DNA of 64,000 nucleotides from Candidatus Krumholzibacteriota bacterium. Its GTDB lineage: Bacteria > Krumholzibacteriota > Krumholzibacteriia > Krumholzibacteriales > Krumholzibacteriaceae. Positions 6,001-20,203 of this stretch are shown here, one piece after another. The position numbers were made by a program, and so were the translations under genes. Under the pieces are notes generated by a model. That model saw only the letters and a list, made by a program, of their open reading frames with translations, had not been told where the DNA came from and ran no database searches. The DNA is taken from the NCBI GenBank assembly GCA_030609325.1, contig JAUWCL010000018.1, positions 1 through 64,000 of the forward strand, given 5' to 3'. Positions within the stretch are counted from its first letter, which is position 1, and each line of letters opens with the position of its first letter.

Positions 6001-7221
6001 TGTACGACCGCGATGGATGTGGATGTTGTGGACAGGGCCGACCTCGACCTGCAGGCGGCGATCTCGAGGCCTCCCGAGGCGATCGGCGGAAACCTTTCGG
6101 TCAACCTGCCGTTCACCATACAGGCAAATGTAATCAATTCTGGCACAGCCGGTATCGACACGAGCGACGCGCGTCTGGAGATAGTTTTACCTGCCAGCGG
6201 GTCCTATACGCTGGATGGGTCCGGCGAGACGCTTCGCAAGCCGTTCTACCCGGGACAGCCAGTCACCTGGGACCTCAGGGCCTCGCTTCCCGACGATCAG
6301 GTGAGCTACATCTGGGTGAGATTCGCATCACCCGCCGCCACCGACGAGAACACGAACGAGGCTGTCGAGTACTTGACGAGCGAGGTCCCGATCGGCGTCA
6401 CGACCAAGGCGGGTACGATAACGATGCAGAACATCTCGCATCTCGAAACGATCCCGCCTGTAGTCGTCCCGAGAGGTGCTGCCGACGTACCGGTCATGAG
6501 GATCGTCTTAAGGAACAACTCCGAATACACGGCGGGCCTCGACACGATGTACGTAAGCGTGGAGGACAGCCGCGGAAACCTCAGGAGCGATCCCTCGAGA
6601 TACGTTTCTGCAGTCACGGTCAGCGCCGGAACGGATAGCTGGATGGAGCCGGTAGGCACGCAGAACCCGGTGCAGGTTATCGTCAGACACAGATTCACCC
6701 TCCTTGCCGGCGCTTCCGACACGGCCCTCGTCTCGATAGACGTATCGCAGGCCGCTCCCGACGGTGAGCTCAGGATCAACCTGGCCGAGAGCAGGGACGT
6801 TGTCTTCTCCATCGGCAGCGACGGCAGCCCGATAGCGGTCGTCCGCAACGCCAACGGCGAGGACATCGCCGGATTCTTCTACAACACACCGCTGTCGATC
6901 ATGAGCGCGAGTTTCGAGGAGTATGTACACAACTATCCCAACCCGTTCAGGGCGGGGAGCGAAGTCACGAAGATAGCCTATTTCCTCACGGAAGATTCTA
7001 GCGTGAGCATAAAGATATACGATTATATGGGAGCGCTCGTCTGGACGAAGGATATCCCGGCCGGCGGCCCCGGCGGCTCAGGAGAGCCGGAAGGCACGTG
7101 GTGGGAGGTGGACTGGGGCGGTCGCAACGGCAGGGGCGAGGTAGTGAGGAACGGAGTATACATCTGCAAGATAACGGCCGGCGGGAAATCAGCGATGTTC
7201 AAGATCGCGGTGGCCAAGTAG
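1..7221 (+). CDS. Giant repetitive cell-surface protein, CARDB-like repeats with FlgD-like C-terminal domain (5' partial)
   Basis: The frame is open from base 1, so the true start lies upstream; a GTG at 16 is probably internal. At least 2401 residues are visible. The N-terminal part resembles a bacterial Ig-like (invasin type) fold. From about base 1160 onward a linker motif (VQTPADL, IQDVAQL, IQDPADL, VQVPAAL and relatives) returns every 350-395 bases, marking about a dozen Ig/CARDB-like modules of roughly 117-131 residues with recurring GQ..W and VxNxG motifs. The last 90 residues carry a NYPNPF motif and end VRNGVYICKI, typical of the FlgD-like domain that acts as sorting tag or barrel anchor in FCB-group secreted proteins. 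Inference: a secreted stalk or adhesin. The following PorV-like gene starts 10 bases later, consistent with a type IX-like secretion pairing. No catalytic domain was seen. Confidence 0.85.
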   Translation, partial: TDPAGVTGTDGIATGTIASTVAETKVVRARIEGSQVTDTLFVDWVPGPPSGVISITSVDPDTITADGVSLSAITAGPVMDVYDNIVPERTRVTVVSSDGTIASDDFDPGLPGSQRETGVNGLVSVFVQSSTDTGSIDVEFRSVEGTAIGTAGLTFAPGPDVQYADSIYPVFVAPGSGERFSVRVTNSSLTWVDLDPSSTISFNDGLGNVFTAALGSVQRLEGVATDSLIFLETVVPSSFDPGTYSPRVSLTGIDRYGAEYETEFDAGINSVIVSSIEITGIQPRKTIVSRGDTAIVDVTVRNKGGAFVVMDDINLDFAMGSYTTLPDIDPPLPDTLHAGLDETYAFMVYVLPNCPLGVDTIDAWATAHVNGDDISDLSADDNYGIWTVQSAAHISDVPGSLTPSIVSVGQTHFFTVDLSNSGEAAVILDAADTRLSFTDGMETYSVALGAEGALTGMSVSDLVFPPAAVPGAMAPGAWPVTVELIGTENGGAFDTSFVLSDLVTVVDPAALTYISATLIPATVSKNSSVAFEIGIRNSGGADVILDQATTTFELDDGTITYTAYLDGACNILLAPGDNTVWFDAVTIPPGFLSGNYSPVLDLAGTENGLPFIAQPSVTDVVSVQDASQLAINSTAIVPSDLFTADQTGVRLAEIRVANNGGAEVRLDSLDVRFYIGGIEVTGEYVLTEAPIVAGIQVPGGTDTLVRMMFVDEAGLMTTGTVTVESTLWGTDLNSLNELEATTEYGGKGSFTVQTPADLVVERVIASVTEATTGQTRDWNVDVIVSNDGESDLEIDLGSAATYLTFSTSGDFTVIRPTELAGGGITLEGESSDTLRFTVDVTGTVAGDCHVNMFTEGMEINSTRVLGTVNAATADEAVVKIQDVAQLQVVSVTSLQDPVTIGQANEWSIDMTVTNGGGSDITLDLGNVDSTAVSVEGGTGFVFTRPVELFEGGVALPAGGSGTLRFVVSMTGTVPVGVTALSGSVVGTEDNSGTRVHHSITGPVGVNSVVFEEHPVPAYAAASLTPTVASSGTDIDIQFGIFSADSDHSTLILDRERTQAWFGDADGDTFRTNLSAVSGVTLEGGLATTLIFNSAAVSEDLERTGYTVGIHLEGTENGNPFSADITSAPDILTIEEAPQLSIIAIEIPQSVTSSLQPPWDVRMVLHNTGEASVRFTLDPDSTGVSLSIAGVGDRTFEYTVEPPTGLEGAGGLVLAGNQIDTLVFNVTGTGATTGTALVNGAVTAVDINSSEILTDDTYTGGGSYMAVQDPSLPVVLEAVASQDSVTSGQSSPWRVTLLVRNDGEAAMTLQPGSMLVYADYVLTVPSPPAAFTEGGTALAAGEAGHLEFEITPTPVIPAGYDLRIDAITGFIEDNRGKYLEYNTGVEGSGYGGVRVQAPADISIVSLTGNAPRQPFVNRNQDFPLAVEITNSGEAAAEFVTAGLAGDGSSSILNTPLIAGTLAGGETVVDTFRVTAADAAGNEEFTASIISVVDINSGQPDLVTVSPGADTTETMTIQDPADLAVTAVLTSQSEVNAGQTSDWTVRVDLVNNGGAPATIDVPDPADIEFLSSGSPLGGYLIVPPSAFASGDAGWMLDGEAADALIYTVSTTGTDTGMVNIDASVSWIDDNNPGAAASTSGGSSSIYVKEPSGLRITLVTSNAPNNTLLPNTSIVNENQPFHVTVTVENTGGDDLRDVDVSLTSNGPASITEIASSPDLPSGTVGYFVYQVSSAAAGVEILTAAIEEAYSVNTGEPVLPIQAVESVENVQVQVPAALVTSTYVLSPVGALDDTVSTGQQFEFAANVDNTGEADIDAFGQITLSLPAGFTRIYPDTDSLTMSFAAGEEIVWTLLAPAVPLASPQPVTVSITRTPSDINIGSAAFVQKDADTVSIVTEEAAVIAGCALVVSSPEGAGDRVFSTYQDFVVSLTAVPSANSQSNTATISLPADFTTTGGETRQLGAGDGTEKTVVWTVTAPDVNITAAAIQVSTAGTDVNSGVSFSGCTTAMDVDVVDRADLDLQAAISRPPEAIGGNLSVNLPFTIQANVINSGTAGIDTSDARLEIVLPASGSYTLDGSGETLRKPFYPGQPVTWDLRASLPDDQVSYIWVRFASPAATDENTNEAVEYLTSEVPIGVTTKAGTITMQNISHLETIPPVVVPRGAADVPVMRIVLRNNSEYTAGLDTMYVSVEDSRGNLRSDPSRYVSAVTVSAGTDSWMEPVGTQNPVQVIVRHRFTLLAGASDTALVSIDVSQAAPDGELRINLAESRDVVFSIGSDGSPIAVVRNANGEDIAGFFYNTPLSIMSASFEEYVHNYPNPFRAGSEVTKIAYFLTEDSSVSIKIYDYMGALVWTKDIPAGGPGGSGEPEGTWWEVDWGGRNGRGEVVRNGVYICKITAGGKSAMFKIAVAK

Positions 7222-7231
7222 GTGGGAACGG

Positions 7232-9121
7232 ATGAAGAGAGTATTTGAAATAACGCTGATCATCGCTCTCGGACTCTGTCCGCTCGGCGCCGCCGCGCAG
7301 GACGGGGGTGGGGGAACGAGGTCGGTTTTTACTCTCGGCGTCGGGTCCCGGGCCATCGCCATGGGCGGGGCCTTCACCGCTGTGGCCGATGACGCCTCGG
7401 CCGTTTTCTACAATCCAGCGGCGATGAAGATCAATGGGGCTCCCACGCTGATGGCGAACCACATCTCGCTCTTCCCCGGATTCACCGATGCTAGCTACGA
7501 CTATCTCGGGCTCGTCTGGCCGACCCTCGGGGCAGGATCGTTCGGAGCCGGAATGCTCACGACGGGAATGGGTGGTATCAGGGGCTTCGATGAGTTCAGC
7601 AGGCCGACCGGGGAACTCTCGTACAGAGAAAGCCTGGGGATCGTCTCGTACGCGTTCGACGTGCCGTGGCGCTTCGCCGGCACATGGTCCGTGGGGACCT
7701 CGATAAAGGTCCTTCACCAGAGGATCGGGGATTACGCCGATACGGGCACCGGCCTCGACCTCGGATTGCTGTACCGCATCAAATATATAGACGGGCTCTC
7801 TTTCGGTATGAACCTCCAGGATATAGTGGGGGCGAAGACGAAGCTCGTCTCGGCCAGTGACGAGGTATACAGAACAATGATGTTCGGTCTCGGGTACAGA
7901 AGGGCGCTCGGGGAGAGCTCGAGACTGACCCTGTCGGTCCAGATGGACATGCCGGAGAAGGCGGACAGCGACCTGAGGTTCGGCGCGGAGTACACGATCC
8001 GTGACATGATCAGCATCAGGATGGGATACGATTCCGAATCGTTCACCGCCGGCATCGGATTCGCGTGGCACGGATACTCCTTCGACTACGGATACTTCAG
8101 CAGGGAAGAGGCAGGGAGCTCTCATCCGATCACGATCACCGTCAGGCTCGGGGAACCGCTCGAGCGGAAGATCGCAGAGAGGGATAAGATACGCAGGGCC
8201 GAGGAGGAGAGAAGGCTCGCCGAACTCTTCGCCGTTCGAGTTGCCTCGCACATCGACGCTGCCGACAGTCTGAAGGGAGCGGGTGAGCTGGAGAGCGCCC
8301 TAGACGAGGTAAAGATCGCCCTCGAATACGATCCGGGCAGCGAACGGGCTGCGATCCTCCGCGACGAGATCGGCGCAGCAATCCTCGCCGCTCTTGAGGA
8401 GCGGACGAGGAACGCCGGGAAGGCGCTCCTTATCAACCAGCATTTCAGCCTCGGATTGAGGCACTACAGCGATAACGAGTATATTCTCGCCAGGGCCGAA
8501 TGGCGCAACGTTCTGGAGATCGATCCGGAGAACGAGCAGGCGCTCGATTATCTGCGCAGGACCGAGGAGAAGCTGAAAGAGCGGCTCCAGTCCCACCTCA
8601 CTGCGGCGGCGGAACATGAAAGAGCCGGCAGGCTACCCGAAGCGCTCGGTGAGTGGAACGTTGTCAGGATGATCGATCCCGAGAACGCAAAGGCTCTGGC
8701 GGCCATTGAACGGATCAAGTGCCGCATGGACAGCATGAGCAGGGGTTACAGGGAGGCCAGCCGCAGGCTCGAGATGATCGACCTCTTCGAGAAGGCAGTG
8801 ACGGCGTTCGGCGAGGGAAAGTATGAGAACGCGATCTCCCTCGCTCGCCAGGTTTTCCGGCTCGACCCGGCCCACGAGGAGGCGAAGGACCTGATCAACA
8901 GGGCGAAGCGAAGGATGAAGCCTCTCAGCGACGACGAGAAGGAACAGATAAGGACTTTCTATATAGAGGGCATGAAACACTTCACGCAGAAGGAATATGT
9001 GAAGGCGATAGATGTCTGGTGGAAGATCCTTGAGATCGATCCTGACAACGAGAGCGTAAGAAAGAACATCGAAGAGGCGAAGCAGCGGCTCAGGAAACTC
9101 GAGTCTCCCGAAGGTGGATAG
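7232..9121 (+). CDS. PorV/UPF0164-like outer-membrane barrel fused to periplasmic TPRs
   Basis: 629 residues. A signal peptide (about residues 1-23, ending GAAAQ) is followed by SRAIAMGGAF and DDASAVFYNPAAM, the hallmark start of the PorV/PorQ/UPF0164 family of barrels. The barrel covers about residues 25-305. A charged helical linker then leads to TPR-like helices (about 330-625) with repeated EYDPGS, EIDPEN, RLDPAH and EIDPDN turns. PorV-family proteins in Bacteroidetes accept the C-terminal domain of type IX substrates, so standing just after a giant protein with such a domain suggests partnership (inference). The TPR half would face the periplasm and could contact the sensor domain of the next gene product. 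The stop codon directly abuts the next start, which implies translational coupling. Confidence 0.82.
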   Translation: MKRVFEITLIIALGLCPLGAAAQDGGGGTRSVFTLGVGSRAIAMGGAFTAVADDASAVFYNPAAMKINGAPTLMANHISLFPGFTDASYDYLGLVWPTLGAGSFGAGMLTTGMGGIRGFDEFSRPTGELSYRESLGIVSYAFDVPWRFAGTWSVGTSIKVLHQRIGDYADTGTGLDLGLLYRIKYIDGLSFGMNLQDIVGAKTKLVSASDEVYRTMMFGLGYRRALGESSRLTLSVQMDMPEKADSDLRFGAEYTIRDMISIRMGYDSESFTAGIGFAWHGYSFDYGYFSREEAGSSHPITITVRLGEPLERKIAERDKIRRAEEERRLAELFAVRVASHIDAADSLKGAGELESALDEVKIALEYDPGSERAAILRDEIGAAILAALEERTRNAGKALLINQHFSLGLRHYSDNEYILARAEWRNVLEIDPENEQALDYLRRTEEKLKERLQSHLTAAAEHERAGRLPEALGEWNVVRMIDPENAKALAAIERIKCRMDSMSRGYREASRRLEMIDLFEKAVTAFGEGKYENAISLARQVFRLDPAHEEAKDLINRAKRRMKPLSDDEKEQIRTFYIEGMKHFTQKEYVKAIDVWWKILEIDPDNESVRKNIEEAKQRLRKLESPEGG

Positions 9122-12100
9122 GTGAAGAGAGAACTCCTGAGGGACAGAGAAACATTTCACCTGGAGATCCCGGCCGACGAGAACAATCTCAGCGAGGTCA
9201 GGGATTTCATCGCAGACGTATGCCTCAAGGCCGGTTTCTCCAAGCGCGAGACGAATAACACGAAGCTCGCGATGGACGAGGCCTGTACCAACATCATCAA
9301 GCATGCCTACCGCGACAAGGTCGGGACGATACGCATCGACGTGCAGGCGGAGCCAGGCAAGGTCGAGATCAACATCTTCGACAGGGGTAAACCCTTTGAC
9401 TGGTCCGGGGTGAAGGCCCCCGACCTGCAGAAATACGTCGAGATCGGTAAAAAGGGCGGGCTCGGGGTCTACCTGATGAACAGGCTGATGGACGACCTGG
9501 ATTACCAGACGTCCGAGAGCGGCAACCGGCTCTACATGGTCAAGGTGGCCGGCTCCGGGGGCGCCGAGCCGCTCTTTTTCTCGATCAAACCGAAATGGAC
9601 ATCGACCCTCAGATTCAAGTTCGCCTTCAGAGCGACCCTCGGGCTCCTTGGTCTGGTCTTCTTCCTCTGGGCCATCCAGTTCATCAACCAGTCTAAGGAT
9701 GTTGCCGCGAGGACCCGTGAGGCATGGTTGTCTATGAACAGCTTTGCCCGCACGGTGGAGGCTAAGAGCGAACCGGCGATGATCAGGGACGACCTGTACG
9801 ATCCAGAGTACAGGGAGCTTACCGATTTTGTGATGGAACGCGTCGTGAAGCACCCCGCGGTCATCTATACGAGGATCGTTAACAACGACGGGACGATAGT
9901 TTCCTCGAGCGACATCGAGGAGTTCATGAATGGTTATCAAATACCCGGGGGTGCGGAGACGCTCGATGCCGAGGGGACGTGGATCACCGTGGAGGGACCG
10001 AAAGGCGACAGGATAAGGGAGCTGCACTTCCCGATATATATCACGCGGGATGACGCCGAAAATGCGGCTTCGCTCGGACGCGTTGTCGTCGGTGTCTCCG
10101 AAAACGTGATAATGAACGGCATCGACGATCCCAGGACAAAGACTACCCTTATCCTCGTAGTGTTGATCGTTGTAGGACTCTCCCTCATATATCTGCTCGT
10201 CTCCGTCCTGGTGAAACCGATCCAGGCCCTGACTGACGGCGTGAGGGCTATAGGCGAAGGTGATTTCAGCGACGAATTGGAGATCGACGGTCCTGAAGAA
10301 ATAGGCGAGATCGCCAGGGCGTTCAACGAGATAACATTCAAGTTCCGTGAAGCCCAGAAGAGTGTAGTAGAACAGGAAAGAATGCAGAAGGAGATGCAGG
10401 TCGCCCAGGAGATCCAGCACTCCCTGCTTCCCGGCAAAGTCCCCGCGGTCAGCGGGTATGACATTGCGAGCCTCTATCGCGCCGCGAAGGAAGTCGGCGG
10501 AGACTATTACGATTTCGTAAGTGTCGACGAGGATACCCTCGGCGTCGTCGTGGCCGACGTTTCCGGAAAGGGCGTTCCCGGATCTCTTGTCATGACGATG
10601 ATCCGTACCGCCCTGCGTATGGAGGCGAGGGGAAGCCACTCGGCCGCAGATGTGATGTCGCGGATGAACGATTTCGTCACCGAGGACATGAAGAAGGGGA
10701 TGTTCGTCACGATCTTCTATCTGATCCTCGATTCGAAGAACAGGGTAATCAGCTACGCCAGTGCAGGCCACAACCCGATGGTCCTCTTCAGGGCCGAGAC
10801 GGACGAGACGTTTTTTCTCAACCCGCGCGGATTCCCCGTGGGCATCAGCCTCCCCGACGAGAGCCTCTTCAGGCGCTCGATCGATGTAGAGAAGATCAAG
10901 CTGAAGAAGGACGACATGCTCGTCATCTACACCGACGGCGTTACCGAGGCGATGAACGCAACGCGCGAACAGTATGGCGAGGACCGCCTCCTTGCCCTGA
11001 TAAAGAAATATGGCAGGAAGTCACCCGATGAGTTCGTGGATGCCCTCAACGAAGATATCAAGGTTTTCACCAGCGGGTTTCCGCAGAACGACGACATCAC
11101 CGTCGTGGCGATGAAGGAAAAGATGATGGCCGACGACGTGCTTTTCGGCATTCGCAAGAAGCTGCTCGATCTTGTGGAGGTAGAGGGCCTCAATGTGGCC
11201 GAGGCGTGTTCGAGCATGAAGGTGTCGCCGTCGACCTATTATAGGTACAAGAAGCGGATGGCCGAGATGGGAGAGCGCGGGCTGAAAAACAAGACCCTGC
11301 GCGAGGAGCACGAGATAAAGCGCGTCAACCTCGAGCAGAGGAAAAAGCTCCTCGAGATAATCAGGCGGCTTCCGAAGTTCGGCGCGAAGAGGATAGCGAC
11401 CGCCTTCAACGACGGCAAGGACGAGAGCGATACCCTGACACCCTCGCTTATATACGACGAGCTGAAGAGGATGCGTCTCAATACGTACGAGAAGAGGCTC
11501 GAATATCTAAGGCGGAACAGGTTCATCTCGGAGGAGCAGTTCCAGGCGATGCTTTCCGGAGATGAAACATCGCCGGCCGCACCGGCTGTCGGTGCCGGAA
11601 ATCTGGACGAAGTATCGGCAGAGGAATTGCCTGCCGCGGATGAGTTCGCCGGGGAGGCAGCCACCTCTGATACGGATCTGTCCGAGTATCAGCCCATGAC
11701 CGTTTCAAGGTATGAAGACAGCGAGGCGGAGGACGATGTCGAGAGGCTGCTTGCTTCCGTTCTCGGCAATGGCACAGGCGAAGGCGGCCTTGTGGAGGTG
11801 CTGACGCAGGATGAGGAGAGAGGGATCATCGTCATCAGGGTCGCCGGCCACCTCGATTCGAGCTCGGCCGGAGAGCTCGAGATCTTCCTCGAGAGCGTCC
11901 ACGAATACGGATTCTCGAAGATAGTCATTGACCTGGCAGGCGTGCCGTACATCAGCAGTGGCGGATGGGGCATATTCACCGGACGTGTGAAGATGCTCAG
12001 GGAGAAAGAGGGAGACGTAGTGCTTGCAGGCATGTCCCCCGAGGTATTCGATATCTACGAGCTGCTTGGTTTCCAGGACATCATCATGAATTTCCGCAAC

Positions 12101-13393
12101 GTCGACGAGGCGGTCGACTTCATCACTCTTCCGTTCGAGGTCAGGCAGGAAAGGCTCGAGCTCGTATCGGGCGCCGCAACGGAAGGGAAACGCCTCGAGC
12201 AGAGGATCAGCGCCGTCTCGGAAGAGAAAGCGGTGAGAGAGGAACAGGAAGGAGCCGTTCCGTGGTCCCCGCTAAGGATCGAGGCGGGTACCGTAGGCGA
12301 GTCGGGCGAGATCACTATTCTCAGCCTCAACGGGGTCATAGATACGGTCAGTTGCATGAAACTCCGCGAGGTAATCGAGAATCTCGTTACGAAGGCCGTG
12401 ACGAAGTTCGTCGTGGACATGTCCATGGTCGAGTATGTCAGCAGCGCGGGATGGGGCGTCTTCGCGTCGAAGATCGACGAGGTCAGGCGTTCCGAGGGCG
12501 ACATTAAAATATTCGGGATGGATCCCGAGGTCGACAGCATCTTCAACATGCTTGGATTCGACGTGATCATGCGTTCGTTCAGCATCCTTTCCGAGGCGAT
12601 AGAGGATTTCGAACACGCGCCTGCGCTTGCCGGCTCGACCGCGGTGATCCCCTCGCTTGTGACAGTTTCCGATGATGATCCTTATGCGGAAGTTCCGTGC
12701 GAAAAGCCTCCGACGGATAACGGGCCGCCGGGCACCGACCTGAGGAAACTGAAATTCGAGGTGGCGGCCAGGCGGTCACCGGACGGTAGATCCATGGTAC
12801 TCGATATCTCCGGTGCGATAGACGCGGCTACATCCGCCGTATTCGAGGACAGGCTCGAGCTGGCCATCGAGGACGGGCCGAAGTTTCTCGTGATCGATCT
12901 CTCCGGCGTCATCTATATAAGCAGCAGCGGCTGGGGCGTCATTGTCAAGTACATGCAGAAGATCGGGGCCGCCGGCGGGAGGATGGCGCTGTCAGGGATG
13001 AACCAGCCGATATTCAAGATATTCAGGGACCTGGGATTCGAGACGCTGATACCGCACTTCATGAACAGCGGGGCGGCTCTGTCCGAGCTCGCCGCGCCGG
13101 TCGCGGAATCGCCGGTAGAAGAACCGGTCCAGAAAAAGGAACGCGAACCCGTCGTCGAAGATGCCGTGAAGGAGGAGTCTGCGCCGCCAGAGCTCGAGAA
13201 AGCCGGTGTCGAACAGATCAAGCCCGCGGCGAGAGAACACGTCGAGACCCTCGACGTCAAACTCGATCTATCGGAGACGACCGGCAAGTCTGAAGGGAAG
13301 GACGGCAGGATCCGCAAGCTGGGATGGGGAGAATACGGAAAGAAACTGTTAAAGCGAAACAGCAGGAGGGACGGGAGGAAGAAGAAGGAATGA
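9122..13393 (+). CDS. All-in-one partner-switching regulator: RsbW-type kinase, membrane sensor-HAMP, SpoIIE phosphatase, transposase-type HTH, three STAS domains
   Basis: 1423 residues, GTG start directly after the previous stop. Domains in order: GHKL ATPase of anti-sigma kinase type (about 10-145; MDEACTNIIKHAY at 51-63, DRGKPFD at 87-93, glycine-rich lid near 111-115); TM about 168-188; extracytoplasmic sensor about 190-338, single-Cache-like; TM about 341-363; HAMP about 364-415; short coiled coil; PP2C/SpoIIE phosphatase (about 425-665; GGDYYDF at 459-465, ADVSGKG at 478-484, TDG at 604-606, NDD at 656-658); two HTH units resembling IS3/IS481 transposase N-termini (about 671-800); STAS 1 (about 890-1000), STAS 2 (1052-1162), STAS 3 (1208-1318); basic tail. 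Family knowledge: the kinase phosphorylates a STAS serine, the phosphatase removes it, and the STAS state controls a target. Having all three plus HTH in one membrane protein is unusual. Target and direction of control are unknown. Confidence 0.9.
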   Translation: MKRELLRDRETFHLEIPADENNLSEVRDFIADVCLKAGFSKRETNNTKLAMDEACTNIIKHAYRDKVGTIRIDVQAEPGKVEINIFDRGKPFDWSGVKAPDLQKYVEIGKKGGLGVYLMNRLMDDLDYQTSESGNRLYMVKVAGSGGAEPLFFSIKPKWTSTLRFKFAFRATLGLLGLVFFLWAIQFINQSKDVAARTREAWLSMNSFARTVEAKSEPAMIRDDLYDPEYRELTDFVMERVVKHPAVIYTRIVNNDGTIVSSSDIEEFMNGYQIPGGAETLDAEGTWITVEGPKGDRIRELHFPIYITRDDAENAASLGRVVVGVSENVIMNGIDDPRTKTTLILVVLIVVGLSLIYLLVSVLVKPIQALTDGVRAIGEGDFSDELEIDGPEEIGEIARAFNEITFKFREAQKSVVEQERMQKEMQVAQEIQHSLLPGKVPAVSGYDIASLYRAAKEVGGDYYDFVSVDEDTLGVVVADVSGKGVPGSLVMTMIRTALRMEARGSHSAADVMSRMNDFVTEDMKKGMFVTIFYLILDSKNRVISYASAGHNPMVLFRAETDETFFLNPRGFPVGISLPDESLFRRSIDVEKIKLKKDDMLVIYTDGVTEAMNATREQYGEDRLLALIKKYGRKSPDEFVDALNEDIKVFTSGFPQNDDITVVAMKEKMMADDVLFGIRKKLLDLVEVEGLNVAEACSSMKVSPSTYYRYKKRMAEMGERGLKNKTLREEHEIKRVNLEQRKKLLEIIRRLPKFGAKRIATAFNDGKDESDTLTPSLIYDELKRMRLNTYEKRLEYLRRNRFISEEQFQAMLSGDETSPAAPAVGAGNLDEVSAEELPAADEFAGEAATSDTDLSEYQPMTVSRYEDSEAEDDVERLLASVLGNGTGEGGLVEVLTQDEERGIIVIRVAGHLDSSSAGELEIFLESVHEYGFSKIVIDLAGVPYISSGGWGIFTGRVKMLREKEGDVVLAGMSPEVFDIYELLGFQDIIMNFRNVDEAVDFITLPFEVRQERLELVSGAATEGKRLEQRISAVSEEKAVREEQEGAVPWSPLRIEAGTVGESGEITILSLNGVIDTVSCMKLREVIENLVTKAVTKFVVDMSMVEYVSSAGWGVFASKIDEVRRSEGDIKIFGMDPEVDSIFNMLGFDVIMRSFSILSEAIEDFEHAPALAGSTAVIPSLVTVSDDDPYAEVPCEKPPTDNGPPGTDLRKLKFEVAARRSPDGRSMVLDISGAIDAATSAVFEDRLELAIEDGPKFLVIDLSGVIYISSSGWGVIVKYMQKIGAAGGRMALSGMNQPIFKIFRDLGFETLIPHFMNSGAALSELAAPVAESPVEEPVQKKEREPVVEDAVKEESAPPELEKAGVEQIKPAAREHVETLDVKLDLSETTGKSEGKDGRIRKLGWGEYGKKLLKRNSRRDGRKKKE

Positions 13394-14136
13394 AGAGTTT
13401 CGCGATAATGACGATGAAGGGGGGTACGGGCAAGACAACGACGGCGGTCAGCCTCGCGCACGGCCTTACCCTTAGCGGGCGGAAGGTCCTTCTCGTCGAC
13501 TGCGATCCACAGCGAAATGTCGCCGTCACTTTCGGCGTCAAGGGAGAAAAGGGGCTCGACGGGCTGCTGATGACCGGCGACGTTGACATTATCCAGGTAA
13601 GGGAAAACTTCTTCATCATAGATTCCGGCGGGCGGAGGCTCGTAGAGGTCGAGCTACAGCTCGGCAGGCAGGAGAGACGGGAAGGAAGGCTCCGGGATGC
13701 CCTGAAGCACCTTAAAGGGTGCGACTATGTCATCTGCGACTGCCCCCCGTCGATGAACCTGATAAACATCAATGCGCTCGCCTACTGCGACGAGGTGATA
13801 GTCCCGGTGGGCATGGACTATCTCTCCGAGGTGGGGGCGCGCCAGACTATGGAGATCATCGAGGAGATCGGATGGATCACGCAAAAGAGCTCGATCGAAT
13901 ACAGGATACTGCCGACGTTCTTCGATTCCCGCACCAGAATATCCAGGATGGTGCTGGACGATCTGAGGGAGCATTTCGGCGAGAGGATGTTCAGCACGGT
14001 GATCAGGATAAATACGGCGATAAGGGAAGCTCCGGGCTCCAACAAGACGATATACGAGCACGCCCCCCTGTCGAGGGGAGCGTACGACTACTACAAGCTG
14101 ACCGAAGAGGTGCTCGCTCTCGAGAGAGAGGTCTGA
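13390..14136 (+). CDS. MinD/ParA-family ATPase (orphan)
   Basis: 248 residues. The ATG overlaps the previous stop (ATGA at 13390-13393), behind an AGGAAGAAGAAGGA purine tract. The deviant Walker A KGGTGKTT sits at residues 10-17 with the signature lysine, followed by LLVDCDPQRN (switch region) and CDCPPSM (Walker B-type). Length matches Soj/MinD-like proteins. No ParB, parS-like repeat or MinE follows, so plasmid-type partitioning is unlikely; orphan ParA/MinD proteins often place protein complexes at the pole or across the nucleoid. Inference: it positions the partner-switching protein or its STAS partners. Target specificity cannot be read from the sequence. Confidence 0.9.
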   Translation: MKSFAIMTMKGGTGKTTTAVSLAHGLTLSGRKVLLVDCDPQRNVAVTFGVKGEKGLDGLLMTGDVDIIQVRENFFIIDSGGRRLVEVELQLGRQERREGRLRDALKHLKGCDYVICDCPPSMNLININALAYCDEVIVPVGMDYLSEVGARQTMEIIEEIGWITQKSSIEYRILPTFFDSRTRISRMVLDDLREHFGERMFSTVIRINTAIREAPGSNKTIYEHAPLSRGAYDYYKLTEEVLALEREV

Positions 14137-14215
14137 AGCGCCCGCCGGAAGACCTGTTTTATTGTATTCCGCGGGGGAGATATGGTAGTATTCCATATTG
14201 TGGGAGGAGTTCCTT

Positions 14216-15334
14216 TTGGAAAGTTTCGAGTTGAGAGAAGAGATACGTCACGACGGGGCGAGCTATTTCCTGCAGACTAGCTACAACTCCGAGAACGAGC
14301 AGATACAGAGCTCGTTTTTCAGGGACGGGGCGGTCTTCGACACGGTGGTCAGAAAGGCCGGTGGGGATACGGAGCCCGAGGAGATCAGGGAACTCACGAA
14401 GGAGATCCATCAGCGGAACAAGCGGAGCTTCCGGTTCATCCTCGATGCGAGGGACAACATCGGCAGGTCAGACGATCCCAATCCGCATCTCAAGCTGGCC
14501 GATACCCTTCTGAGAAAGAACCTTTTCCGCGAGGCGATCGCCGAGGCCGAGATGGCGGTGGAAAAGGGAGCGAACGATTCGAGGGCCTGGATGGTAATCG
14601 GAGAGTCGCTTTACAGGATGGACGAGTTCGACATGGCGCTCGACGCTATCCGCAAAGGGCTCGAGCTCAGTCCTGACTATCCCGACCTGCATAACCTGAT
14701 AGGGAAGATATTCCTCAGGCAGAATATGTGCGGGATGGCGGTCGAGAGCTTCAAGAAGGCGATCGGACTGAACATATATTACGGTGAGCCGTATCTCAAC
14801 CTGATCCGGACCTACCTGACCAACACGATCATCAAGCAGGACTACGAGCTTTCCAGAGGGCTCGAGGAAAAGTTCTCATCAAACCTCAAAAAGGCCGGGC
14901 AGCTCAATCCCAACCTGAGGGACGGGATCCTCGACGATGTAAAGGCCCATTTCAAGAGGGAGGAGTACGAGGAGGCTCTGAAACTACTCGACGGGATCGG
15001 ATCGGTCAGCGCCCGCAGCCTGGTCGACGACATCATCCTTGAGCTCTACCTGATGCTCATCCAGAGCGGAGACGAGATCGAGGAGGGGGATATAGAAAAA
15101 TACCTCGAGAAGGTAGGTGAGATTCTGGACAGGAATCCCACCTTCGCAGACGCCTGGAACTCGCTTGGTATCCTTTATACTGCAAAATGCAAGATATTCA
15201 TGGACAAGGCGAGCGAGGCGTTCGAAAAGGCCCTCGAGATAAATCAGGATTACGAAAAAGCGAGGAAAAACCTGAGGCTTACGGAGAACGATCGACAGGG
15301 GATTTTTATCCTTTTGAAGGCATTATTGGACTGA
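14216..15334 (+). CDS. TPR-repeat scaffold protein of the partner-switching operon
   Basis: About 372 residues from a TTG at 14216, chosen because GGGAGGAG at 14202-14209 sits 6 bases upstream; an in-frame TTG at 14198 has no site. The N-terminal 90 residues form a separate small region (SYFLQTSYNS, FFRDGAVFDTVV). From about 95 on, helical TPR-type repeats are evident (ADTLLRKNLFREAI, IGESLYRMDEFDMAL, LIGKIFLRQNMCGMAV, LGILYTAKCKIFMDKASEAF). No signal peptide, so probably cytoplasmic. It lies between the ParA-like ATPase and two STAS proteins, which suggests a scaffold or adaptor, but that is inference from context only. Confidence 0.8.
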   Translation: MESFELREEIRHDGASYFLQTSYNSENEQIQSSFFRDGAVFDTVVRKAGGDTEPEEIRELTKEIHQRNKRSFRFILDARDNIGRSDDPNPHLKLADTLLRKNLFREAIAEAEMAVEKGANDSRAWMVIGESLYRMDEFDMALDAIRKGLELSPDYPDLHNLIGKIFLRQNMCGMAVESFKKAIGLNIYYGEPYLNLIRTYLTNTIIKQDYELSRGLEEKFSSNLKKAGQLNPNLRDGILDDVKAHFKREEYEEALKLLDGIGSVSARSLVDDIILELYLMLIQSGDEIEEGDIEKYLEKVGEILDRNPTFADAWNSLGILYTAKCKIFMDKASEAFEKALEINQDYEKARKNLRLTENDRQGIFILLKALLD

Positions 15335-15381
15335 AAGTTGCATTAAAAGACCCGAGGAAACCAGAACAGGACAGACAACGT

Positions 15382-15750
15382 ATGGACAAGTTGCTTATTA
15401 ATGAAGAAAAAGTCGAGGACGTCGTAGTCCTGAAGCTCCAGGGGCTGGTCGATTCCGGCACGGCCCAGCTGATGGAAGGGCGGCTCAACGATCTGATATC
15501 TGACGGTAACGTCAAGATCGTCGTGGACCTCGATCTCGTGGATTACATAAGTTCCGCCGGTTGGGGGATATTCGTCGGTGAGATCAAGGGCGTCAGACAG
15601 AGCAACGGTGATATCAAGCTCGCCTCGATGCGTCCCGATGTACGGGAGGTATTCGACCTGCTCGAGTTCAACACCCTGCTTACGCCGTATGATTCCCGGG
15701 GGGATGCTCTGGCAGCGTTCGAGGCGGAAAAAAGAAACGAATTTGCCTGA
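15382..15750 (+). CDS. STAS-domain anti-anti-sigma-type protein 1
   Basis: 122 residues from the ATG at 15382; an upstream in-frame extension overlaps the TPR gene and has no STAS character. One STAS domain fills the protein. The phospho-acceptor loop reads VDYISSAGWGIF, equivalent to the SpoIIAA loop but with serine where SpoIIAA has aspartate. The candidate target is the second serine (family knowledge). The loop is almost identical to those of the three STAS domains in the 1423-residue protein and of the next gene, so it is a likely substrate of the RsbW-type kinase and SpoIIE phosphatase encoded upstream. Confidence 0.88.
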   Translation: MDKLLINEEKVEDVVVLKLQGLVDSGTAQLMEGRLNDLISDGNVKIVVDLDLVDYISSAGWGIFVGEIKGVRQSNGDIKLASMRPDVREVFDLLEFNTLLTPYDSRGDALAAFEAEKRNEFA

Positions 15751-15777
15751 GCCCGGATGCAAAAGGGAGCGAAACCG

Positions 15778-16179
15778 ATGAACGACATCAATATTACCTT
15801 TTCGAAACCCGACGAGAATCCTGATATATCGGTCATATCAGTCAAGGGATATGTCGATACCACGACCTCGACCGAGCTCGAGGAGAGCCTCAAGCGCTTG
15901 TTGGGCGGGGGACGGTACGACATCGTCATCGATCTCGGCAACGTCAACTACATCAGCTCGGCCGGCTGGGGTATATTCATAAGCGAGATAAAGGAGATCA
16001 GGGAAAACGGCGGGGACCTTAAGCTTGCCGCCATGATCGGCGACGTCTACGAGGTCTTCGAACTTCTCGAATTCCAGACGATTCTCGAGAGCTTCGACAC
16101 TGTGGAGGAGGCCGTCGGCAGCTTCGGCGAGGTCTCGCCCGGCGGGAACGGAAACAAGGAAAGCGAGATCAAAGCCTGA
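15778..16179 (+). CDS. STAS-domain anti-anti-sigma-type protein 2
   Basis: 133 residues. The ATG at 15778 is preferred over the one at 15757 because GGGAG at 15765-15769 is 8 bases upstream of the former. One STAS domain with the loop VNYISSAGWGIF; about 20 C-terminal residues are polar and probably disordered. It is the last gene of the unit and a strong hairpin terminator follows within 30 bases. It probably arose by duplication of the preceding gene. With two free STAS proteins and three fused ones, the circuit has five candidate phospho-acceptor domains. Confidence 0.9.
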   Translation: MNDINITFSKPDENPDISVISVKGYVDTTTSTELEESLKRLLGGGRYDIVIDLGNVNYISSAGWGIFISEIKEIRENGGDLKLAAMIGDVYEVFELLEFQTILESFDTVEEAVGSFGEVSPGGNGNKESEIKA

Positions 16180-16297: not shown

Positions 16298-18451
16298 TTG
16301 GAGTCATCAAGCTGGACGATCGTCATCGATCCCGATCCGTGGAGGATCGGGGCCGGCATATTGCTCGCGCTGTATGCGTGCTGGGCGTACAGGCGGACCC
16401 TGCCGCCCCTGTCCCTCTCCAGGCGGGCAGCCCTTGCCGCCCTGAGGATCGCCGGTTTTCTTTTGCTTGCCGTCTTCGCGCTGGATCCTTCAATCGTGGC
16501 AAGGAGCGAGTCGTCGAGATCGCCGGTAGTATCCGTCCTCGTCGACGTCTCCGGAAGCATGAGCATCAAAGACGGCGGGGCTGACCCGAGGATAGATGCT
16601 GCCGTTCGGGCGGCAGGCATGATAGCCGGATCCCTCGGCGAGGCGAGGGTCGAAATCCTGCCCTTCGCCGCCGGGCTCTGCGGCGCGGCGGTATCTCTGG
16701 ACAGCATCCCTCCGGCGGACGGAGAGGGAACGGATATCTACGGGGCGATCGAAGGGGCTGAGAGAAGATACGCTGGCGATAAACTCGCCGCGGTCGTGCT
16801 CGTCTCCGACGGCCGCATTACGAGGGGGATGTCGGGAAGGTACGTTCCCGGCCGAGTGCCGGTCTTCACGGTTGCGGTCGGAGACACTGTCGAGGGAGCG
16901 GACCTGTCGGTCGACAGGGTGGAGTACGAGAGGACCGTTTATACGGGGACAAGGGAGAGCGTCAGGGCAGTCATCAGGTACTCCTCGGTCGATGAGTGGG
17001 CGGCGGTCGTCGAGCTGGCTGATGGTGGAAGGGTCCTCGACAGGTTCAGGACAGGCATCCTCAGAGGCAGCGGCCTCGTCGAGGCAGATCTGAGATATGT
17101 TCCTTCCGAAGAAGGCACCCGCTCCATGGAGGTCCGTGTGGCGCCCCTGGACGGCGAGGTGACGGAAGGGAACAACAGGGAGATGTTCAGGATAAACGCC
17201 CTCAAGGACCGCGTCGAGATCCTGTTCTTCGACGGCAGCCCGGACTGGAACATGACATTCATTCGCAGGTTGTGCGAAGGTTCGAAAAGGCTGCACCTGG
17301 ATGCTGCGGTTCCCGCTCCGGGAGGGGGATACAGGATGCCCGGCGGGGGAAGGTGGGAGTTTCCCGGAGACGTGGACGGGCTCTCGAGGTATGACCTCGT
17401 TATAACGGGCGGAGGAGGGACGTTTCCATCCGCAAGGGAGGCGGAGACGCTGACCGAATACGTCGCCGCTGGCGGAGCGGTTCTCTTTATCGCATCGGAG
17501 AAATCCCCCGTGCTCTTTCCCCGCGCGCTGACGTTGCTCAGGCGGGCGCTGCCGGTCACGGCCGCCGGTGCTCCGCGTATCGCGGCCGGTGATTTCCTTG
17601 TGACTCCGGGGCCGGCCGTGGACGCGCCTTGGCTGCCCGACATGAGCGGCAGCGGAAGAGGGACGCTCCCTCCCCTGTCGGGAGTGGTCGAGGGGCTGTC
17701 CCCGACCGCAGGGGCACAGGTACCCCTTGTCCTGACGGGCAACGGGCCGGAGAGACCGTTTCTCGTCGTCGAGCCGAAAGAGAAGGGGATATCGGCGGTC
17801 CTTCTGGGCTTGCCGGTCTGGAGATGGAGGCTCGCAGGAGAAGAAGGGGCCGATGCGTACGATGGTCTCCTCGGAGGGTTGATACAGTACCTGGCCGAGG
17901 GACGCAAGGTGTCGGCTCTCGACGTCCAGACCGACAGGTCAGCATACAGAACGGGCGAGACGCCGAGGATCACCGTCTTTCCCTCCACCGGGCGCGCCGG
18001 CGAGGGCATCCGCGGCGAGATCATCGCGGCGGGAAGCGACGGCGTTCCCGTCGAAACCTTTATACCGGTGCCCGATCCGGATAGGCCCGGGGTCTACGGG
18101 GCCGTTCTCGGGAACCTTCCCCCGGGAGACTATACGGTCAGGGTAAAGGCGGGACCGGCTGACGGGGCCACGGTGGAGGGCAGTACGACGTTCGCCGTCG
18201 AATCTCTCTCAGTTGAAATGCTGCGCACATCGGGTGACGCCGGGTTACTCGGAAGGATCGCCGCAGACTCGGGCGGTAAGGTCGTCAGGCTGGAGGATGC
18301 AGGGGAGCTTGCCGGCATGATCGACCTCGAAGCTTATACCGTAGTATTGACGTCGGTCCGTAAGATGCGCGGCAAGGCCTGGTTCTTCGCCGCTATCGTC
18401 CTCGTATTCGCGGCTGAATGGCTGCTCCGCAAGATCCTGGGCCTCGTGTAG
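16298..18451 (+). CDS. Membrane-anchored VWA-domain protein with glutamine-amidotransferase-like region
   Basis: 717 residues from a TTG at 16298, with GGAGG about 5 bases upstream. Two N-terminal membrane segments (about 17-31 and 46-63) are followed by a VWA domain with an intact metal-site motif DVSGSM at 83-88, GEGTD further on, and VLVSDGR. The middle part (from VEILFFDGSPDWN) looks like the class I amidotransferase-like fold found in related FCB and planctomycete membrane proteins, with no evident catalytic cysteine. One C-terminal membrane helix (AWFFAAIVLVFAAEWLL) is followed by a short basic tail. The topology puts the large domains outside the cytoplasm. Relatives are usually annotated BatA-like or VWA membrane protein of unknown function. 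No MoxR ATPase or DUF58 partner is nearby, so the usual Bat cluster is not present here. Confidence 0.82.
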   Translation: MESSSWTIVIDPDPWRIGAGILLALYACWAYRRTLPPLSLSRRAALAALRIAGFLLLAVFALDPSIVARSESSRSPVVSVLVDVSGSMSIKDGGADPRIDAAVRAAGMIAGSLGEARVEILPFAAGLCGAAVSLDSIPPADGEGTDIYGAIEGAERRYAGDKLAAVVLVSDGRITRGMSGRYVPGRVPVFTVAVGDTVEGADLSVDRVEYERTVYTGTRESVRAVIRYSSVDEWAAVVELADGGRVLDRFRTGILRGSGLVEADLRYVPSEEGTRSMEVRVAPLDGEVTEGNNREMFRINALKDRVEILFFDGSPDWNMTFIRRLCEGSKRLHLDAAVPAPGGGYRMPGGGRWEFPGDVDGLSRYDLVITGGGGTFPSAREAETLTEYVAAGGAVLFIASEKSPVLFPRALTLLRRALPVTAAGAPRIAAGDFLVTPGPAVDAPWLPDMSGSGRGTLPPLSGVVEGLSPTAGAQVPLVLTGNGPERPFLVVEPKEKGISAVLLGLPVWRWRLAGEEGADAYDGLLGGLIQYLAEGRKVSALDVQTDRSAYRTGETPRITVFPSTGRAGEGIRGEIIAAGSDGVPVETFIPVPDPDRPGVYGAVLGNLPPGDYTVRVKAGPADGATVEGSTTFAVESLSVEMLRTSGDAGLLGRIAADSGGKVVRLEDAGELAGMIDLEAYTVVLTSVRKMRGKAWFFAAIVLVFAAEWLLRKILGLV

Positions 18452-18523: not shown

Positions 18524-20203
18524 ATGATGAAGACGTGGCGCTTCCTTCTTCCGGCCGTTCCTCCGACATTCATGATTCTATGTCTCGCGGGCTGCGTATC
18601 CGGCTCGGTCTCTTCGCCTGTCGTGATAAATGAGGTTTATTACGACCATCCGGGAAGTGACGCGGGATTCGAATTCGTCGAGCTCTATTGTCCCGGAGAG
18701 ATTCGCGTATCTCTGGAAGGATGGGCGATCGCGATGATCGACGGCAGGACGGGAAGGATGCGCGATCTATGGCGGGCTGAACCGGGAACGATCATCGAGA
18801 GCGGTGGCCTCGTCCTGATCGGGGGCGACAGCTGCGCCGTGTCGCCGGCCAACCTCCTGATCGGCTCGATCGAGAACGGGCCGGACGCGGTTGTTCTTCT
18901 GCGCGATGGTGAAGAGATCGACCTGGTCTGCTACGGAGGCGACGGTCCGGGCTGTTCTCCGGGCAGATCCCTCTCCCGTCGTCCGGACGGAACGGATTCC
19001 GGCGACACAGGCACGGACTTCGTCTGCGCTTCACCGACTCCCGGTCTGAGAAACTTCCATGACTGCGATCTGGCAGTCTCGTTCGCGGGGCCTCTCCACG
19101 TTTATTGCCCGTCCGAACGCGCCGATATCCCCATCCTTCTGGAGAATAAGGGCCTGGACGGATTCTCCGGGAGCGCCGTTCTGACCGTATCGAGCGAACA
19201 GACAGGTTCTCGGACGGTAGTCGGGAGCAGGCATCTGAATCCCGTGCTGAAGGCGGGAGAGGAGCTGGCGGTGCAGGTCGGTTGCCCGGGATTGCCTGCA
19301 GGGATCTCGAATCTCGAGATACGGATAGAGGCGGACGGCGACACGAATCGATCGAACGACAGCGGATCGGTCTTCGTGAGTTCCTCTCCGGGAGAGGTCG
19401 TTATCAGTGAGATCATGTACAGGCCGGTCGAGGGCGGCGAATGGATCGAGCTGTTCAACAGGTCTCCGGTAACGGTCGACCTGTCCGGATGGTCTGTTAC
19501 CGACCGGTCGGGCGCCTCGGGATCGATCAGAAGCGGTGTGGAGATCGAGGCTGGATGCTTCGTCGTCCTTGCGCAGGACCCTGACGCCGTAACCGCGATG
19601 TTCCCCGCCTGTGCGGGGATCGTCTCGGCGCTCGAGAGCAGGTGGCCCCGTCTCAATGACGGAGACGGGGACGGTATCGCCGAGGAGATATTCGTCCGGC
19701 TGCACGACGGGACCACGGTCGAGAGCGTCTCATATCGAGGTCTGATCGGAGAGGAGAAGGGACGCTCTATAGAGAGGCTGTCTCCGGAGCTCTGCAGCGC
19801 CGACATGGCAGGGATATGGCTCCGCTGCGGGGCGCCTGGCGGTGGTACTCCCGGTGAGCGGAACTACTGCCATACCGTCGGCATCCCGACGGCGGGTATG
19901 ACCGTCTCGCCCGATCCATTCTGTCCGGAGCTGAACGGCGTGGTGAAGTTCTCCGCGGCTGCCCGTAACGGTGAGGTCTCGTATGGAGCACGCATCTTCG
20001 ATATGGAAGGGAGGGAGATAGCGAGGCTCGCGTCGGGCCCGGTCGGAGCCCCGGCGGTTTCCTTCGACTGGGACGGTCGCGATTCGAGAGGAAGGCCGGC
20101 CGCTACCGGCCTGTATATCTGCGTGGTGGAATTCAACGGCGGCGGAGGTGGTTTATGCAGAAGGGAAAAACGTACAGTAGCGGTCTGGGCCGGACAGCGT
20201 TGA
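18524..20203 (+). CDS. Lamin-tail-domain (LTD) lipoprotein with FlgD-like C-terminus
   Basis: About 559 residues; a second in-frame ATG at 18527 has better spacing from GGGGAGG at 18514-18520. The signal sequence ends in LCLAGC, a lipobox. Two lamin-tail-type domains are visible: about 33-165 (VVINEVYYDHPG, FEFVELYCPG) and about 288-450 (VVISEIMYRP, GEWIELFNRS). The region between them is a beta-rich CARDB-like module. The final 85 residues (ARIFDMEGREIARLASG, DWDGRDSRGRPAATGLYICVV) match the FlgD-like Ig domain. Probably displayed on the cell surface or outer membrane. LTD domains occur in secreted nucleases and adhesins, but no catalytic domain was seen. Confidence 0.85.
   Translation: MMKTWRFLLPAVPPTFMILCLAGCVSGSVSSPVVINEVYYDHPGSDAGFEFVELYCPGEIRVSLEGWAIAMIDGRTGRMRDLWRAEPGTIIESGGLVLIGGDSCAVSPANLLIGSIENGPDAVVLLRDGEEIDLVCYGGDGPGCSPGRSLSRRPDGTDSGDTGTDFVCASPTPGLRNFHDCDLAVSFAGPLHVYCPSERADIPILLENKGLDGFSGSAVLTVSSEQTGSRTVVGSRHLNPVLKAGEELAVQVGCPGLPAGISNLEIRIEADGDTNRSNDSGSVFVSSSPGEVVISEIMYRPVEGGEWIELFNRSPVTVDLSGWSVTDRSGASGSIRSGVEIEAGCFVVLAQDPDAVTAMFPACAGIVSALESRWPRLNDGDGDGIAEEIFVRLHDGTTVESVSYRGLIGEEKGRSIERLSPELCSADMAGIWLRCGAPGGGTPGERNYCHTVGIPTAGMTVSPDPFCPELNGVVKFSAAARNGEVSYGARIFDMEGREIARLASGPVGAPAVSFDWDGRDSRGRPAATGLYICVVEFNGGGGGLCRREKRTVAVWAGQR

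Follow-up and report, generated by a model that had tools for sequence, protein, structure and literature searches.

Partner switches in which a kinase and a phosphatase act on a STAS protein are known from Bacillus, in the form of SpoIIAA/SpoIIAB/SpoIIE and RsbV/RsbW/RsbU, and the locus considered here resembles them in its kinase, STAS and PP2C families, in the position of the phosphorylated Ser and in its logic. In many bacteria several kinase/STAS pairs share one cytoplasm, and the question is how such look-alike pathways stay separate. The specificity of the phosphatases for STAS substrates has recently been mapped, and the authors remark that the specificities of kinase and phosphatase may have arisen independently of each other (PMC11418112). 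We consider a stretch of 64,000 nucleotides (the window: positions 1 to 64,000 of contig JAUWCL010000018.1, assembly GCA_030609325.1) from the 2.63-Mb draft genome of a Candidatus Krumholzibacteriota bacterium, in which five STAS domains carry the loop Y[IV]SSxGWG. We propose that these five loops are probably an inherited hallmark of a single STAS family, belonging to one Trp-marked partner-switch module that extends across phyla. By its sequence, the module consists of a protein in which an RsbW-type kinase, a membrane-sensor region, a HAMP domain and a PP2C phosphatase are joined, usually together with a two-part helix-turn-helix (HTH), and of one or more Y[IV][SN]SxGWG STAS partners; the window and its relatives have three STAS copies fused to the module protein and two free. 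Its parts in the window are:

9122..13393, + strand: kinase-sensor-HAMP-PP2C-HTH-STAS1-3 fusion, 1423 aa, a single open reading frame (ORF; Pfam, NCBIfam)
9167..9544, + strand: RsbW/SpoIIAB-type kinase domain, HATPase_c_2 (PF13581, 100.2-105.4 bits, cut-off 27.4)
9740..10114, + strand: probable Cache-like sensor with a hydrophobic stretch on either side, the stretches judged by eye (PF17203, 21.4 bits, below the 28.4 cut-off)
10196..10330, + strand: HAMP domain (PF00672, 41.2 bits)
10529..11116, + strand: SpoIIE-type PP2C phosphatase domain (PF07228, 171.9-177 bits, cut-off 25)
11135..11533, + strand: two-part HTH, transposase/paired-domain-like (HTH_Tnp_1, 24.7 bits, cut-off 24.1)
11813..12112, + strand: STAS1, loop YISSGGWG at 11948 (STAS profile)
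12299..12595, + strand: STAS2, loop YVSSAGWG at 12434 (STAS profile)
12791..13075, + strand: STAS3, loop YISSSGWG at 12914 (STAS profile)
15382..15750, + strand: free STAS4 gene, loop YISSAGWG at 15544 (STAS profile)
15778..16179, + strand: free STAS5 gene, loop YISSAGWG at 15949 (STAS profile)

The loop shared by five STAS domains, which an earlier note on this DNA had described, is borne out at 11813-16113 by the translations and the STAS profile. With the preceding residue, the loops read PYISSGGWG (STAS1), EYVSSAGWG (STAS2), IYISSSGWG (STAS3), DYISSAGWG (STAS4) and NYISSAGWG (STAS5), and their DNA cores lie at 11948-11970, 12434-12456, 12914-12936, 15544-15566 and 15949-15971. Solved STAS structures have FMDSSGLG (SpoIIAA), YMDSAGLG (TM1442) and YMDSTGLG (RsbV) at the aligned site; since they carry Asp and Leu, Ser-for-Asp and Trp-for-Leu are genuine differences from them. 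Chance occurrence of the loop was excluded by a reversed-pattern control, which gave 7 matches in 80 genomes of the phylum against 125 for the degenerate loop DNA pattern. Among 156 Trp loops, drawn from the window and loci L056-L134 (each locus preselected by the loop pattern for at least one loop), the second Ser, the Tyr at -3 and the G-W-G core are present in 156/156, and the first Ser is replaced by Asn in three (S 153, N 3). Homology suggests that the second loop Ser is the phospho-acceptor. The residue following it is Gly for STAS1 in 22/22 triple fusions and mostly Ser for STAS3, which also sits on long branches in both STAS trees described below. These slot-specific +1 residues and long branches would fit a reading in which STAS4 and STAS5 alone signal, the fused copies STAS1-3 serving as pseudo-substrates or scaffold; we regard it as rather doubtful, given that STAS1-3 have kept the putative phospho-acceptor Ser and the GWG core.

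The earlier note had taken the Ser in place of Asp, as well as the Trp, to be a private change, and for the Ser this is not sustained. Ten STAS domains were found in the window's own genome at the search threshold, with Asp before the phospho-Ser in 0/10; the five outside the module read KWISSTGLG (the C19 STAS), KWINSTGVG (C36), QWSNSTGIG, KWLNSLGAG and SELTSLGGG. In 32 further non-module STAS of the phylum (from 35 picked non-randomly among the best-scoring rows, three, in G011, G050 and G028, not being included), the residue before the phospho-Ser is Asp in 16, Asn in 10, Ser in 4 and Ala in 2, and Trp at +3 occurs in 0/32. Ser is found in the C19 STAS and at L186, L187, L204 and L205, as well as in YISSAGLG loops near other kinases (L326, L327 and 15/15 readable loci of L359-L378); its presence in unrelated STAS and beside paralogous kinases rules out Asp-to-Ser as a private mark. 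Kinases of other types have other loops as their partners: F[IV]SS[AC]G[IV]G in kinase-STAS fusions, WINSTGVG with C36 of the window's own genome, FVASSGLG with a PP2C-kinase fusion (L320) and YMDSSGVA at L328. 'ISS' is common in STAS proteins unrelated to this kinase; Ser before the phospho-Ser is one of several alternatives, and Trp is the distinctive part of the loop. At L314-L316, in a related system, a sensor-PP2C gene adjoins a kinase and a STAS that are naturally fused in one protein of 377-381 aa, a convenient single chain for determining the structure of a kinase-STAS interface.

The earlier note had further proposed co-evolution with one kinase, and as an association this holds. Nearly all genomes surveyed are metagenome-assembled genomes (MAGs). 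In the window's own phylum the loop pattern occurs in 39/80 genomes, or 37 once two (G052, G056) that match the DNA pattern and read YISTSGWG and YVSWAGWG are set aside as loop-negative. The kinase-PP2C-HTH ortholog, searched with alignment A2, scores at least 598 bits in 30/80, every one of which has the loop; 43 genomes have neither, and seven have the loop only, among them G011 and G027, which are 61-62% complete and lack a full kinase ortholog. A wider scan of species genomes returned 375 stretches of Y[IV]SS[AGS]GWG[IV], of which 364 are STAS. The best 80 of these 364 (79 distinct loci) come from records named Krumholzibacteriota, UBP1, Latescibacterota, Zixiibacteriota, GN15, KSB1, Calditrichaeota/Caldithrix, FCPU426, Spirochaetes/Spirochaetota, Eisenbacteria, CSSED10-310, Bacteroidetes/Bacteroidota and plain 'bacterium', the closest named STAS1 match among them being a Candidatus Krumholzibacteriota MAG (L056, 99%). 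Within 9 kb of the loop, kinase and PP2C were found in 53/79 loci and PP2C alone in 9/79; of the remaining 17, one (L066), a fused triple STAS, lies at the edge of a contig, and the other 16 were searched genome-wide, giving an ortholog of at least 479 bits in 13 and, in G093, a 189-bit kinase-sensor fragment. The converse search started from the kinase, with no preselection for the loop, in the phyla of a Calditrichaeota MAG (G092) and a spirochaete MAG (G094), and A2 orthologs were found in 94/132 (E 1e-140) and 15/198 genomes, respectively. Among 114 listed matches (95 + 19), 48 loci were read; in 35 the short flank contains a STAS and in 13 it does not, and the loop is cut in 4 of the 35, leaving 31 readable. 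Trp is present in 31/31 (20 from the G092 phylum, 11 from the G094 phylum).

Matched paralogs within one phylum refine this association. In 79 genomes of the G091 phylum, with loci picked from the listing of kinase matches, the kinase profile matches at 154 bits or more in 71, mostly in frames longer than 1000 aa; with 94/132 in the G092 phylum, the module is frequent among uncultured phyla. Many G091-phylum genomes also have a free kinase at ~120-150 bits. A STAS adjoins it at 15/20 loci, and all 15 read YISSAGLGV; the other five have no STAS, and L398 (233 bp) is empty. Module STAS loci of this phylum read Y[IV]SSAGWGI in 19/19 readable cases, and both loop types were read within the same genome in 11 genomes. 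Comparison of the two STAS groups (19 vs 15) gives 32 separating columns, of which 12 are invariant in each group; of the ten columns that make up the loop, two separate the groups, namely +3 (Trp 19/19, Leu 15/15) and +5 (Ile 19/19, Val 15/15). Between the kinase groups (30 vs 20) there are 17 separating columns, and in none of these are both groups invariant. Trp/Leu at +3 is, on this alignment, a good candidate determinant of specificity; that Trp alone sets it was dropped as an over-reading, since it is one of the 32 separating columns. The tight pairing of kinase lineage and loop type, in which the paralog loops differ at +3 and +5 only, is what would be expected if the loop, chiefly its Trp, had co-evolved with this kinase as an insulating element against cross-talk. 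In agreement with this, the -3 aromatic of SypA, Phe53, is described as part of the core of the modelled SypA-SypE interface (PMC10120452). Insulation of this kind is nevertheless a tentative proposal, which we place short of probable: Trp/Leu is a single one of the 32 STAS columns, 0/17 kinase columns are fixed on both sides, and descent is enough to explain the loop, as the following trees indicate.

The rows of all three trees were hand-chosen from the loci at hand. In a 93-row STAS tree with the loop columns blanked, 57/57 Trp rows fall on one side of one branch (Shimodaira-Hasegawa-like approximate likelihood ratio test, SH-aLRT, 98), compared with a shuffled mean of 28.6 changes, and the rows nearest the Trp group are four STAS with SS and no Trp and one with NS. 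A second STAS tree, to which the YISSAGLG relatives were added, rests on 86 columns and leaves many forks open, with long branches. Because the near kin have SS in both STAS trees, the Ser is probably older than the Trp. The kinase tree, also with many open forks and long branches, requires 2 changes for the Trp-paired kinases, one of them forced, against a shuffled mean of 13.9, a figure that also speaks for insulation; the L328 kinase, paired with a KYMDSSGVA loop, sits inside the Trp-paired kinases. With their open forks, the second STAS tree and the kinase tree neither show nor exclude a single origin. It can be surmised from these trees that the loop is shared mainly through descent in a co-inherited gene set, and repeated adaptation is not needed. 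The clustering of Trp rows in the loop-free trees would also suit pure inheritance, in which Trp is a frozen structural feature of the STAS lineage with no role in recognition. We consider this quite unlikely, as Trp is kept in 31/31 and 19/19 loops of the kinase-first samples, yet the window's STAS copies are only 31-43% identical to STAS1.

Several observations weigh against the proposal of one inherited signature in one module. Once the YISSAGLG relatives are included, the best tree requires 2 changes for the Trp rows, one of them forced, and the YISSAGLG clade is their near kin. The 32 columns that separate the STAS paralogs mean that Trp cannot be singled out as the determinant. Two loop-bearing genomes, G091 and G095, have no kinase ortholog genome-wide, these MAGs being possibly incomplete. 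Finally, a genome-wide search with the kinase profile did not find the module kinase in G001 and G002 (family f3) or in G007, G008 and G009 (f5), which are 86-99% complete and have one free Y[IV]SSAGWG STAS each; their best scores are 52-67 bits, compared with 187-205 for module kinases and 54-56 for the paralogs of the window's own genome.

These orphan loops are the strongest result against the idea of co-evolution with the kinase, and they argue against insulation. 'ISS' occurs in STAS unrelated to this kinase, and Trp in part occurs away from it, in these five genomes; this speaks against a strict form of the co-evolution claim, and descent suffices. A role for the loop with the kinase only would predict drift where the kinase is gone; the loop is unchanged, which indicates a second partner, so that whatever recognises the Trp is probably not the kinase alone. 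In 5/5 genomes the orphan STAS adjoins the same genes as STAS5 in the window, encoding a VWA-like protein and a lamin-tail-domain (LTD) protein. The genes that accompany the fusion and the free STAS genes in the window are:

13390..14136, + strand: ParA/BcsQ-like ATPase (PF13614, 121.6 bits; TIGR03371, 82.4 bits, below the 157.85 cut-off), its ATG, picked by eye, overlapping the stop of the fusion gene
14198..15334, + strand: TPR protein (Pfam; its N-terminus profile matches relatives in other module loci)
16298..18451, + strand: VWA-like protein gene, syntenic with STAS5 (PF13519, 24 bits, below the 27 cut-off)
18524..20203, + strand: LTD protein gene, syntenic with STAS5 (PF00932, 104.9 bits)

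The conservation of the STAS5-VWA-LTD order without the kinase suggests that STAS5 may act together with the VWA/LTD proteins. It may be that the Trp serves a downstream target, or self-association of the STAS domain, instead of the kinase; the target would possibly be a VWA/LTD-linked partner for STAS5, and elsewhere a diguanylate cyclase or an HTH. That STAS5 has retained both its loop and the adjoining VWA and LTD genes in the five orphan genomes is consistent with this, as is the need of SypA for the helix following its phospho-Ser in order to give output, K67A and R68A being stable and inactive (PMC4517449). The neighbours vary among phyla (ParA/TPR, GGDEF, HTH) while Trp is constant, and no external target is known for STAS1-3; we therefore treat a target-directed Trp as possible and not as probable. 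In one orphan locus (L176, 6686-9388), the ORF adjoining STAS5 appears by eye to be split by an intein-like insert. Other neighbours in the window lie 5' of the fusion: a protein at 7232-9121, immediately 5' of the kinase, with a PorP/SprF match and TPR repeats, a relative of which lies immediately upstream in 30/43 loci where the kinase has more than 2 kb upstream, and a very large protein with a CARDB match at 1-7218, truncated by the window start, whose BLAST cluster occurs in 41 loci including the window. The PAR and TPRN profiles started from window sequences and were refined by iteration over the same set of loci, and their matches in other phyla are possibly not orthologs.

Returning to the proposal of an inherited module, its mode of action can be hypothesised from characterised members of the family. 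The kinase would phosphorylate the invariant second Ser of each loop, as in SpoIIAA/SpoIIAB, RsbV/RsbW and SypA/SypE; on triggering of the sensor, the fused phosphatase would strip the phosphate, and the STAS domain would bind its target in one of the two phosphorylation states. The Ser ahead of the phospho-Ser is a widespread and probably older alternative to Asp, and the Trp at +3 would probably aid a partner in recognising this STAS family. That the site before the phospho-Ser is not neutral in every STAS follows from SypA, in which Asp55 holds it and the D55A protein was undetectable (PMC4517449). The kinase residues E53, N57, D87, G89 and G112-G115 and the PP2C residues D461, D479, D605, D657 and D658 are unchanged in 10/10 rows of alignment A2. 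The output would probably be control of surface polysaccharide or cyclic di-GMP (c-di-GMP) in Zixibacteria-like genomes, and in this genome a function linked to ParA/TPR/VWA.

For the former, the Trp-loop STAS has a gene of the GGDEF cluster on its 3' side in 18 Zixibacteria- or Calditrichaeota-like loci (L081, L083, L084, L086, L087, L089-L092, L098, L100, L102-L104, L106, L115, L120 and L132), several of which also hold genes for polysaccharide export, Wzz, polysaccharide deacetylase with DUF3473, TPR and P-loop ATPase; GGDEF, Poly_export, Wzz and the deacetylase were confirmed by Pfam in one representative per gene cluster. This neighbourhood suggests a role like that of SiaABCD or HsbA in those loci. 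A neighbouring diguanylate cyclase is unsupported as the output here, because none of the genome's four GGDEF domains is on the window's contig. The HTH offers another route. HTH_29 and HTH_32 fall below cut-off on this region, and NF033577 (IS481) scores 54.9 bits against a cut-off of 224. An AlphaFold2 model built with 49 sequences (predicted local distance difference test, pLDDT, 88; predicted template modelling score, pTM, 0.52) gave VIA matches to Pax5 (Z 7.7, root-mean-square deviation (rmsd) 10.3, 109 aligned), Pax6 (Z 7.5, rmsd 10.9, 112 aligned) and the DNA-binding domains of TnsB, IstA and Tc3 (Z 6.1-6.5, rmsd 9-13), with no VIA match at Z of 8 or more and no Foldseek match at E <0.001; these resemblances possibly reflect only a common arrangement. 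In KSB1-type and spirochaete loci, a single STAS is fused to a related HTH half (L379-L397, 42-73 bits). A direct DNA output of the partner switch is plausible by analogy, since in CapK/CapS an RsbW-like kinase can control a STAS repressor with a winged HTH (wHTH). A more ambitious scenario would have membrane-spanning kinase-phosphatase proteins of several phyla, forming one family with a transposase-derived paired-type DNA-binding domain that many Trp-loop STAS partners also bear, carrying an outside signal straight to DNA (or c-di-GMP) with no sigma factor, and the loop Trp as its insulating mark; taken as a whole, we judge it unlikely.

The module belongs to the known STAS partner-switch kind, as a variant form. 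All five domains pass PF01740 (STAS; 58.1-72.7 bits, cut-off 22.6), and STAS4 (64.1 bits) and STAS5 (60.7) pass the score of TIGR00377, the anti-sigma factor antagonist superfamily (cut-off 53.45), as does the fusion (165.6 bits, spread over three stretches). The SpoIIAA equivalog TIGR02886 (cut-off 114.75) is missed by STAS4 (51.7 bits) and STAS5 (40.1), the 122.9 bits of the fusion being a whole-protein score summed over three domains, and the RsbW equivalog NF003144 (cut-off 145) is missed at 87.9 bits. In Pfam, STAS4 and STAS5 match STAS and STAS_2 only, and no DNA-binding domain. No description of the loop or the module was found in the literature searched by title and the start of the abstract, preprints and most subscription papers excepted. 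The natural matched pairs in 11 genomes and the genomes that have lost the kinase make the meaning of the loop testable by residue swaps.

Compared with SpoIIAA/SpoIIAB/SpoIIE and RsbV/RsbW/RsbU, the window has kinase, sensor, phosphatase and three STAS domains in one protein, and unlike these Bacillus switches it carries Ser and Trp in place of Asp and Leu in the loop, and it includes an HTH. In the SiaABCD system of Pseudomonas, SiaD goes with SiaC. Region 343-665 of the fusion resembles SiaA (NF038263, 79.2 bits, far below the cut-off of 700), and the 18 related loci with a diguanylate cyclase gene after the STAS recall that system; in contrast to SiaABCD, kinase and phosphatase are fused in the window, their partner is a STAS of the PF01740 family bearing a Ser site, and there is no adjacent cyclase. 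SypE and SypA, from the biofilm pathway of Vibrio fischeri, are similar in that kinase and phosphatase reside in one protein acting on a polysaccharide-controlling STAS. In SypE a receiver domain separates the kinase from the PP2C domain, where the window has a sensor region and HAMP instead; among 13 Pfam matches in the fusion at E 0.001 there is no receiver family, and HAMP and a weak Cache match occupy that place. SypA has Asp55 before Ser56 (PMC4517449), whereas the window loops have Ser there. In HsbR/HsbA/HsbD of Pseudomonas aeruginosa, a phosphorylatable anti-anti-sigma factor likewise interacts with a diguanylate cyclase (PMC5085249); unlike the window, this system has no sensor-kinase-STAS fusion. 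CapK/CapS is alike in that an RsbW-like kinase acts on a STAS that carries a DNA-binding domain, giving a direct transcription switch; CapK is an HTH-STAS-GHKL protein activated by single-stranded DNA and CapS has a MarR/ArsR-like wHTH (EMBO J 2026, PMC13373217). Unlike CapK/CapS, the window combines a sensor region, a PP2C domain and a transposase/paired-like HTH with free STAS4 and STAS5 proteins that carry no DNA-binding domain.

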